Source of the DNA: Brevundimonas sp.
GTDB taxonomy: Bacteria; Pseudomonadota; Alphaproteobacteria; Caulobacterales; Caulobacteraceae
Direction of reading: 5' to 3'
Assembly (NCBI RefSeq): GCF_004210735.1
Contig: NZ_SDZL01000003.1
Coordinates: 1-64,000 of the forward strand
DNA length: 64,000 nt
This document shows positions 20,118-58,282 of this stretch, in pieces. Within the stretch, counting starts at the first letter, position 1. Each line of letters opens with the position of its first letter. The notes under the pieces are model-generated. The model had not been told where the DNA came from. It did not search any database and saw only the letters and a list, made by a program, of their open reading frames with translations. The position numbers were made by a program, and so were the translations under genes.

Positions 20118-20270
20118 CCTTCTCCCTCCCCGTCCCGGGGAGGGTGGCTGAGCCCGCAAGGGCGAAGCCGGGTGGGGGCGACCAGGCTGAGCATCCACCG
20201 CGCCCAGCATCGCCAGGCCCTCCCCACCCGGTCGCTGCGCGACCACCCTCCCCAGAAGGGGAGGGAGAGG
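20118..20270. repeat. Palindromic intergenic element, family E (CCCTCCCC...GGGGAGGG arms)
   Basis: tctccctccccgtcccggggagggtgg ... ccaccctccccagaaggggagggaga with inner GGGTGGGG / CCCCACCC. Confidence 0.88.
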
Positions 20271-24299: not shown

Positions 24300-24449
24300 C
24301 CTTCTCCCCTCGGGGGAGAAGGTGGGCGGCGAAGCCGCTCGGATGAGGGGGCTGTGTCAGCGAGCAGACGGCTTGATGTCGAGGGTGAGGCCAACCGCCC
24401 CCTCATCCGTCTTGCTCCGCAAGCCACCTTCTCCCCCGAGGGGAGAAGG
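24300..24449. repeat. Palindromic intergenic element, family A (CCTTCTCCCCTCGGGGGAGAAGG), copy 1
   Basis: Terminal hairpins at both ends; inner GGATGAGGGGG / CCCCCTCATCCG. Confidence 0.93.
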
Positions 24450-26006: not shown

Positions 26007-26155
26007 CCTTCTCCCCTCGGGGGAGAAGGTGGGCGCCGGAGGCGCTCGGATGAGGGGGCTCTGTCAGCGGCAGGACGGCAGGCGATGAGCATGGGGCCAA
26101 CCGCCCCCTCATCCGTCATGCTGCGCAAGCCACCTTCTCCCCCGAGGGGAGAAGG
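26007..26155. repeat. Palindromic intergenic element, family A, copy 2
   Basis: ccttctcccctcgggggagaagg ... ccttctcccccgaggggagaagg; fills almost the whole gap between two convergent stop codons. Confidence 0.93.
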
Positions 26156-35504: not shown

Positions 35505-36983
<1,479 letters not shown>

Positions 36984-36992
36984 TTTCCTGAA

Positions 36993-37470
36993 CCCTCTCC
37001 CAGCGGGAGAGGGAGGGACCCGCGCGAAGCGGGGGAGGGTGAGGGGTTACGCCGTTGGCCGATGATACGCGGACAGAACGAGCACGAACCCTTCGCCAGC
37101 GCCAAACCTGGGCCGAGGATAGGTTGTGGCAGGCCATTCGCGGCGGACGTCTCGATGGCCTGAAATTCCGGCGACAGTATCCGCTGGGGCGCTATTTCGC
37201 GGACTTCGCCTGCGAAAAGGCCCGGCTGGTCATCGAACTGGATGGCGGGATACATGAGGATGACGACCAGGCCAGCCATGACCTGATCCGTCAGAACGAG
37301 ATCGAGGCGCGCGGCTGGTTTGTGCTGCGATTTTTGAATGAGGAGGTCGAGACCGACCTTCAACGTGTGCTGGATGCTGTACGGGCTCAGGCCCATATGG
37401 CCGACGGCGTAACCCCTCACCCTCCCATCGACTTTGTCGATGGGGCCCTCCCTCTCCCGCTGGGAGAGGG
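36993..37470. mobile_element. Putative DUF559-containing palindromic element between gatA and gatB (~478 bp)
   Basis: Left arm ccctctcccagcgggagagggagggaccc..ggagggtgaggggttacgccgt (36993 on). The right arm, ending at 37470, is its reverse complement except for a different inner stem-loop. Together they enclose a DUF559 ORF. Confidence 0.75.
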
Positions 37471-37474
37471 CTAA
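37055..37474 (+). CDS. DUF559 domain-containing protein (Vsr-like / PD-(D/E)XK endonuclease fold)
   Basis: [92 protein letters not shown] start; C-terminus reads into the right inverted repeat. Confidence 0.88.
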
Positions 37475-37484
37475 AGATGACGAC

Positions 37485-38987
37485 ATGACCGACACTGCAA
37501 CGAACTCGAAACTCATCCAGGGCCGCACGGGCGCCTGGGAAATCGTCATGGGGCTGGAAATCCACGCCCAGGTGGCGTCGAAGGCCAAGCTGTTCTCCGG
37601 CGCCGCCGTCGGCTTCGGCGCGGGGCCGAACGAGCAGGTGTCGCTGGTGGATGCAGGCTTCCCCGGCATGCTGCCCACGCTGAACAAACACTGCGTCGAA
37701 CAGGCGGTGAAGACCGGCCTGGGCCTGAAGGCGCAGATCAACACGCGCAGCCAGTTCGACCGCAAGAACTACTTCTATCCCGACCTGCCCACCGGCTATC
37801 AGATCAGCCAGCTGTATCACCCGATCGTCGGTGAAGGCGTGGTCGAGGTCGAGGCCGAGGACGGCAGCTTCTTCAACGTCGGGATCGAGCGCCTGCACCT
37901 GGAACAGGACGCGGGCAAGCTGATCCACGACCTGTCGCCGACCGAAAGCTATGTCGATCTGAACCGCGCGGGCACGGCCCTGATGGAGATCGTCTCGCGT
38001 CCCGACATCCGCTCGCCGGAAGAGGCGGTCGCCTACGTCAAGAAGATCCGGACTATCCTGGTCTATCTGGGCACCTGCGACGGCGACATGGAAAAGGGCA
38101 ATCTGCGCGCCGACGTGAACGTGTCGGTCTGCCGCGCCGGGAACTATGAGAAGTTCAAGGCCACCGGCGACTTCAGCTATCTGGGCACGCGCTGCGAGAT
38201 CAAGAACGTCAACTCGTTCCGCTTCATCAGCCAGGCGATCCAGTACGAGGCGCGGCGCCAGATCGAGATCCTGGAAGACGGCGGTTCGATCACGCAGGAA
38301 ACCCGCCTGTACGATCCCACGGCCGGCGAAACCCGCTCCATGCGCTCCAAGGAAGAGGCGCAGGACTATCGCTACTTCCCCGACCCCGACCTGCTGCCGC
38401 TGGAGATCGAGCAGGCCTGGATCGACGACATCAAAGCCAACCTGCCCGAACTGCCGGACGAGAAGCGCCGTCGCCTGATGGCCGACTATGGCCTGTCGCA
38501 ATACGACGCGGTGGTCCTGATCTCGGAACAGGCCAAGGCGGATTATTTCGAGGCCGCCGCGAAAGGTCGCGACGCCAAGCTGGTGTCCAACTGGGTCACG
38601 AACGAGTTGTCGGCGCGCCTGGCCACCGACGGTCGGGACTTCAGCGACAACCCGCTGCCCGCCGCCCACGTCGCCCAGCTGGTCGAACTGATCGAGACGA
38701 ACGTCATCTCGTCCAAGATCGCCAAGGAAGTCTTCGACCACGTCTGGAACGGCGAAGGCAGCCCCGCCGAGGTTGTGGAGAAGCACGGCCTGAAACAGGT
38801 CACCGACACCGGCGCCATCGAAAAGGCCGTGGACGAGATCATCGCCGCCAACCCTGACAAGGCCGCCGCCGTCGCCGAAAAGCCCCAGGCCATCGGCTGG
38901 TTCGTCGGCCAGGTCATGAAGGCCACCGGCGGCAAGGCCAACCCGGCCGCCGTCAACGACATCCTGAAAGCTAAGCTGGGGCTATAA
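37485..38987 (+). CDS. gatB: Asp-tRNA(Asn)/Glu-tRNA(Gln) amidotransferase subunit B
   Basis: [50 protein letters not shown]. Confidence 0.97.
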
Positions 38988-38993
38988 CCGAAC

Positions 38994-39142
38994 CCTTCTC
39001 CCCTCGGGGGAGAAGGTGGCTTGCGGAGCAAGACGGATGAGGGGGCTGTTCGCCGCGCCCTCGACATCAAACCGTTTGCCCGCTGACAGCGCCCCCTCAT
39101 CCGAGCGCCGCTGGCTCTCACCTTCTCCCCGAGGGGAGAAGG
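38994..39142. repeat. Palindromic intergenic element, family A, copy 3 (opposite orientation to copies 1 and 2)
   Basis: ccttctcccctcgggggagaaggtggcttgcggagcaagacggatgaggggg ... ccccctcatccgagcgccgctggctctcaccttctccccgaggggagaagg. Confidence 0.93.
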
Positions 39143-58135: not shown

Positions 58136-58282
58136 CCTTCTCCCCTTGCGGGAGAAGGTGGCCGAGCAAGGCGAGGTCGGATGAGGGGTCTGGCAACGCT
58201 GGAATGAGGGGCGCAAGCAAACCGCCGTCGACCCCTCATCCGTCAGGCGTCGCCTGCCACCTTCTCCCGCAAGGGGAGAAGG
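58136..58282. repeat. Palindromic intergenic element, family A variant (CCTTCTCCCCTTGCGGGAGAAGG), copy 4
   Basis: ccttctccccttgcgggagaagg ... tcggatgagggg ... cccctcatccg ... ccttctcccgcaaggggagaagg. Confidence 0.93.

Follow-up and report, generated by a model that had tools for sequence, protein, structure and literature searches.

A DUF559 gene enclosed by triplex-motif-like palindromes between gatA and gatB of Brevundimonas belongs to a family of small dispersed DNA units

We analyzed a 64,000-nucleotide stretch of a Brevundimonas sp. genome (contig NZ_SDZL01000003.1, positions 1 to 64,000; referred to here as the window). Between the stop of gatA at 36983 and the start of gatB at 37485, a 420-bp DUF559 ORF is enclosed by terminal inverted repeats of ∼70 bp. 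The TTG start of the ORF (37055-37474) lies in the left arm, and the frame crosses the right arm to a TAA just beyond it. The profile match to PF04480 had an E value of 7e-36 and 122.8 bits vs. a curated cut-off of 20.6. Two inverted repeat pairs were detected, 36986-37021/37442-37477 (36 nt, 89% identity) and 37033-37060/37399-37426 (28 nt, 96% identity). In a within-genome search the left arm matched the reverse-complemented right arm at 88% over 68 nt (E 2.4e-15). As single-stranded DNA both arms folded better than shuffled sequences (z -2.9 to -4.9). An Rfam search of the unit region gave no family match. The features of the unit are as follows.

36993-37013, + strand: left outer palindrome CCCTCTCCC-AGC-GGGAGAGGG (sequence, inverted-repeat search, DNA hairpin fold)
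37019-37035, + strand: left inner stem-loop CCCGCGCGAAGCGGGGG with a c(GAA)g loop (DNA fold; c(GNA)g loops are usual in related arms)
37037-37046, + strand: left G-rich tail GGGTGAGGGG; it mirrors the purine strand GGGAGAGGG (A or T over A) and could serve as a third strand (sequence, mirror statistics)
37055-37474, + strand: ORF of a predicted DUF559 (PF04480) PD-(D/E)XK/EDxHD-type nuclease, 139 aa, with a C-terminal tail encoded by the right arm (ORF, profile, alignment, structure model)
37413-37422, - strand: right-arm G-rich tail, GGGTGAGGGG on this strand, mirror of the purine strand (sequence)
37424-37444, - strand: right inner stem-loop CCCATCGACAAAGTCGATGGG (DNA fold)
37450-37470, - strand: right outer palindrome CCCTCTCCC-AGC-GGGAGAGGG (inverted-repeat search)

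An earlier note on this DNA had described a DUF559 nuclease ORF between gatA and gatB, with arms alike over ∼70 bp, a different inner stem-loop in each arm (CCCGCGCGAAGCGGGGG on the left, CCCATCGACAAAGTCGATGGG on the right), a start inside the left arm or at its edge, and a C-terminus encoded by the right arm. The profile match, the arm alignment and the ORF limits given above agree with each of these points. Its claim that gene and palindromes form one unit was also correct, as the same unit recurs at other loci. The 478-bp stretch belongs to a family of small DNA units that lie dispersed, and it represents their gene-bearing form.

Read 5′ to 3′ on the G-rich strand, an arm of this family consists of a pyrimidine strand, a loop and a purine strand (together the outer hairpin, 36993-37013 in the window), usually followed by a hypervariable second stem-loop (37019-37035) and then by the G-rich tail (37037-37046). 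This tail mirrors the purine strand instead of complementing it, as in the pairs GGGAGAGGG/GGGTGAGGG, GGGGAGAAGG/GGATGAGGGG, GGGGGGAAGG/GGATGGGGGG, and GGGGGAAGG/GGAAGGGGG. Among 354 perfect hairpins near DUF559 genes, 44% had a perfect mirror tail vs. 6.6% with permuted tails, on a scale whose ceiling is about half because near-palindromic hairpins were entered on both strands; a perfect direct-repeat tail was found in 17% vs. 6.3% with permuted tails. Both window arms have a hairpin followed by a mirror-image purine strand in the third-strand position, and a mirror purine strand is able to lie on a duplex as a third strand. In its layout, the arm is the known intrastrand triplex motif, published under the names BoxC, PIT element, and TM_ECO; the TM_ECO triplex has been formed in vitro in solution (PMC4666352). 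As in the published motif, a pyrimidine-purine hairpin is followed by a mirror G-rich third strand, and the elements are intergenic, dispersed and sometimes arranged in inverted pairs; one published copy adjoins E. coli ycjD. In the published arms, however, the third strand follows after no more than a short linker, whereas most arms found here have a variable mini-hairpin at this place. The 2015 triplex study noted that no mobility function had ever been found near the motif and called its origin unclear (PMC4666352). A G-quadruplex is an alternative to the triplex for these arms.

The inner hairpin could be scored in 165 of 378 distinct arms. Its triloops were GNA closed by C-G in 97 of 119 cases, with all four bases occurring at N, and TNC in none; control triloop hairpins elsewhere in the same loci (n = 1504) included 67 GNA and 79 TNC loops. 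The GNA preference lies on the same strand as the tail, which suggests that selection acts on the single-stranded DNA folding of one arm strand. In the window unit the left inner loop is of the c(GNA)g type and the right one is not. The hairpin d(CGCGAAGCG) is documented as extraordinarily stable (PMC10527192). A hybrid short unit was seen at another locus (L007, contig C60:2940-3003), with one arm of the CCTTCTCCCC class and a second that matches the window CCCTCTCCC arm at 89% identity over 60 nt.

The gene within the unit is under clear purifying selection, with dN/dS between 0.06 and 0.28 for nine of the ten pairs compared and 0.45 for the tenth, a very close one. Residues E21, D50, E61, D63, and H67 were invariant in alignments of 26-29 sequences; by alignment, the nuclease-type active site appears intact and the protein is a predicted nuclease. 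The structure model (pLDDT 87.7, pTM 0.81) matched 3HRL, a gonococcal relative, first and I-Bth0305I second (TM 0.66/0.74, E 1.8e-4), with Vsr further down. The ORF matched only DUF559 and a related nuclease model, PRK09767 being the named NCBIfam match. The window protein belongs to the same family as NGO0050 (PDB 3HRL; E 1.2e-19) and E. coli YcjD, which are, however, single-copy, fixed or lineage-specific genes. The catalytic-domain fold of the EDxHD homing endonucleases, represented by I-Bth0305I, is thus the second-best match of the model; unlike these enzymes, the unit has no intron, intein or extended DNA-binding region and is bounded by its own inverted repeats. The 139-aa protein consists of the nuclease domain and the read-through tail only. 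A contig scan with the window protein as query found only seven loci. A defense-system role was considered and set aside, as the PADLOC match was only marginal (DpdF, E 0.011). In previous work, a DUF559 gene of Thermosynechococcus was assigned to the EDxHD homing family (PMC9403480), and DUF559 segments were found to be recombination hotspots in Legionella (PMC12308824).

The same genome carries four DUF559 genes and 85 palindromes of the form CCYTCTCCCN(2-8)GGGAGARGG vs. 0 with the reversed pattern, so the palindromes are not due to chance. The window alone contains five paired-arm units without DUF559, of about 144-152 bp (no strand assigned), which had escaped the earlier note.

20119-20270: DUF559-less paired-arm unit whose right arm shares 56/60 nt with its counterpart in the DUF559 unit that this genome carries on contig C52 (the flanks, when joined, align to other genomes across the junction)
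24300-24449: DUF559-less paired-arm unit between two convergent genes, its site being empty in 12 or more related genomes (sequence, flank comparison)
26007-26155: DUF559-less paired-arm unit (sequence comparison)
38994-39142: DUF559-less paired-arm unit directly downstream of gatB (sequence comparison)
58136-58282: DUF559-less paired-arm unit (sequence comparison)

Three of the five are 85-88% identical over their full length to a gene-less unit that adjoins a DUF559 gene on contig C124. The arms thus recur both with and without DUF559, as the earlier note had proposed to check, and in sequence the two kinds of unit resemble gene-less and gene-bearing partners of one family. The number of repeats follows the presence of DUF559 only in part: one genome (G023) has neither, but two others in which DUF559 was not detected, G040 and G012, have 29 and 35 palindromes.

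Empty gatA-gatB sites, another check proposed earlier, do exist. Across the genus the two genes abut or overlap at seven loci, and DUF559 lies between them at twelve. At one of these loci (L119) the DUF559 gene is reversed together with its repeats; a single outer palindrome is found in the interval at L125 and a lone right arm at L098, and many other gatA-gatB intervals in the genus hold another small gene. All gatA-gatB DUF559 genes of the genus form one clade in the tree. The window copy is therefore long resident at this site, where losses and one inversion have occurred, against the simple reading of a recent insertion. As a separate observation, the interval (window 36983-37485; L076-L165) is a hot spot in the genus, occupied by a ∼470-bp small gene on the opposite strand, by membrane-protein ORFs or by nothing.

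Presence/absence was also seen elsewhere, all comparisons being between species. Empty sites were found for the DUF559 units at L019, L047, L048, L062, and L069, where the joined flanks match relatives across the junction (alignments of three were inspected); in one genome (L174) a lone palindrome stands at the L062 site. Relatives also have empty sites for two gene-less units of the window, 20119-20270 and 24300-24449; at the second of these, only a few bases separate the two convergent genes in 12 or more genomes. The units thus combine terminal inverted repeats with presence/absence at orthologous sites, two features of insertion sequences and MITEs. AAAT stands at both ends of the 24300 unit, and by eye no consistent repeat was seen at about ten other units; a precise target-site duplication consistent across the units inspected was not found. 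In the genus, 33 DUF559 loci are spread over 20 neighborhoods, and some units remain at one locus across species. In one genome pair (G019/G010) the units are 96.8% identical vs. 89% over 149 nt of gatB; we discounted this as proof of recent movement since the units share their neighborhood.

We compared the surroundings of DUF559 genes at three taxonomic depths. DUF559 is present in 57 of 61 genus genomes, at 0 to 9 copies per genome. Inverted repeats scoring above 50 lay right around the domain at 26 of 30 testable genus loci, with the 95th percentile of shifted controls at 29. In the class-wide sample 16 of 28 loci scored above the highest shifted control (37), and in the phylum sample 14 of 28 reached at least 33, where the shifted controls had their 95th percentile at 26 and a single outlier at 71. 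An explicit motif finder, accepting motifs within 400 bp of the DUF559 gene, gave motif-bearing flanks in 54/60 (genus), 43/56 (class), and 39/56 (phylum) cases vs. 7/60, 0/56, and 2/56 at positions ∼1 kb away (p from 4e-14 to 2e-19); these samples took the best-scoring DUF559 per genome, so weaker members might show lower rates. Some 10-30% of DUF559 flanks were without the motif. In a control experiment on the same phylum sample, genes for the nuclease Vsr had motif-bearing flanks in 0/56 cases. The enrichment of DUF559 homologues beside inverted repeats, on which the earlier note had made its reading depend, is thus present. The frame enters or crosses the downstream arm at 46 of the 74 loci with a 3′ arm in the genus, class, and phylum samples, so in many annotated DUF559 proteins the C-terminal tail is encoded by a repeat.

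Outside Pseudomonadota, similar arrangements were found at Deinococcus and some cyanobacterial DUF559 genes. Three DUF559 loci on Deinococcus plasmids had inverted-repeat scores of 41, 71, and 98, and one on a Pseudanabaena plasmid scored 128. Motifs lay on both sides of a Synechocystis DUF559 gene and on neither side of a Picosynechococcus one. Two loci on Sinorhizobium megaplasmids had a complete arm pair on each side. Three side observations were made on the layout of DUF559 loci. A complete gene-less arm pair on each side of DUF559 was seen at L049, L050, L054, L055, and L075, a composite-like arrangement of two short units around a gene. The units of three Deinococcus plasmids (L304-L306) sit at differing points of one hpaB-hpaE catabolic cluster. 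In the Pseudanabaena plasmid (L301), the repeats of ∼90 bp on either side of DUF559 are built on GCCCCCTAAATCCCCCAATTCTGGGGGAC and presumably resemble a repeat common in cyanobacteria.

In E. coli the DUF559 gene is ycjD, located between sapF and fabI. At least 80% of a sapF-ycjD-fabI query was covered at one place in 3360 of 5426 E. coli genomes. In both loci that were read, the TM_ECO/BoxC motif lies downstream of ycjD, with motifs on one side only. Strains without ycjD have the eef efflux operon at its position, consistent with the reported occurrence of an efflux operon in place of ycjD in E. coli strains (PMC12817139); with the operon there instead, no clean junction, and hence no clean empty site for ycjD, was obtained. 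At this site, E. coli strains have ycjD together with triplex motifs or else the eef operon (L261 and L262 vs. L266-L269), and the repeat-bearing DUF559 locus coincides with presumed operon loss.

Gene and arms also show coupling. Both arms were of one class at 53 of 61 loci, where 18 were expected and the maximum in 2000 shuffles was 29. On the genus DUF559 tree, arm class changed 5 times vs. 14.9 in shuffled data (minimum 11); part of this agreement reflects common descent at a single site. In the deeper class and phylum samples, arm class and DUF559 tree showed no clear agreement (16 changes vs. 18.6, minimum 15).

These data could be explained by the following mechanism. One arm strand would fold when single-stranded, e.g., at the replication fork, and the small Vsr/EDxHD-type nuclease would recognize folded arms of its own class and cut or nick them. 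Repair or template switching would then copy this unit or, in trans, one without the gene, either to new intergenic places or again at old ones in a homing-like manner. The outer palindromes are also direct repeats of each other, and recombination between them could delete the gene and leave single palindromes, as found at some sites. We give this whole chain, from the nuclease acting on folded arms to the copying of the unit by repair, an even chance of being right, and trust the DUF559-arm association itself much more. The broader proposal is that a minimal mobile element made of a lone homing-type nuclease and the folding, triplex-forming terminal palindromes on which it acts copies itself and its gene-less derivatives, and has thereby generated the BoxC/PIT/triplex repeats across bacterial phyla; we put this forward tentatively, at somewhat under even chances. 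The earlier note had proposed a minimal mobile unit like RAYT/REP. The unit, its recurrence, its presence/absence and the gene-less units sharing its arms are observed; that the nuclease acts on the arms or moves them is what we would infer.

The arms might instead be spread by other machinery, either replication slippage or a trans factor, with DUF559 a passenger captured between two of them. The excess of gene-less pairs over DUF559 genes (85 palindromes and four genes in this genome), the persistence of palindromes in G040 and G012, and the disagreement of arm class and DUF559 tree at depth all fit such an origin. A passenger would not, however, be expected to come from one and the same gene family in each of three phyla, nor to show purifying selection, an intact active site and an arm class matched to the gene within the genus, and the related nuclease Vsr has no such flanks; we consider it unlikely that DUF559 is a mere passenger. 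Another possibility is that DUF559 is a cellular Vsr-like repair nuclease, near which triplex repeats accumulate or are tolerated, or which limits the breaks that they cause. VsrA of C. crescentus, which contains a DUF559 domain, is SOS-linked and was proposed to be a mismatch-repair nuclease; it was held responsible for DNA damage when the cytosine methylase is missing (PMC12907096). Triplex repeats have been tied to genome instability in E. coli (PMC4666352), and the units that stay at one locus across species would suit a resident repair gene. But a repair gene acting in trans needs no repeats on both flanks, and neither the range of 0 to 9 copies per genome within one genus nor the spread of loci over 20 neighborhoods is expected of one, so that this explanation, too, seems improbable to us.

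That the palindromes are ordinary bidirectional terminators or mRNA stabilizers around an ordinary gene is very improbable. The units do sit at gene ends, and one replaces a terminator hairpin present in relatives, but no terminator-like site was detected at the arms, such a role needs neither the mirror tail nor the strand specificity of the c(GNA)g loop, and hairpins of this kind are absent around Vsr genes. RAYT transposases and REP palindromes form an established system of similar layout, in which hairpin repeats form inverted pairs, palindromes flank the gene of a small DNA-processing enzyme, and paired copies without the gene (REPINs) lie around the genome. The enzyme here, however, is a predicted PD-(D/E)XK/EDxHD-type nuclease and not a Y1 HUH transposase. 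With no PF01797 match in a genome that is 95.7% complete, a Y1 transposase elsewhere in the genome as the mover of the palindromes is refuted unless its gene lies in the missing few percent, and we regard it as extremely improbable. The units also resemble MITEs and the RIME-type elements of Rhizobiales, which are short, intergenic paired palindromes; for RIME we know of no transposase-bearing parent.

The repeats and the protein family are each already known. In the open-access literature we found no paper on such units and none that links DUF559 to these repeats or to "inverted repeats"; priority for the link is nevertheless not certain. Repeats with the triplex motif have been known for years in E. 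coli and hundreds of other genomes and tied to genome instability, and they had no known source; DUF559 may be the long-missing partner of the BoxC/PIT triplex repeats. If true, a large family of "unknown function" would gain a function. The arms offer natural DNA substrates in which a possible triplex is joined to an extra-stable GNA mini-hairpin. With a DUF559 gene found between triplex-motif repeats in three phyla, a direct and cheap test is at hand in E. coli through ycjD and BoxC.
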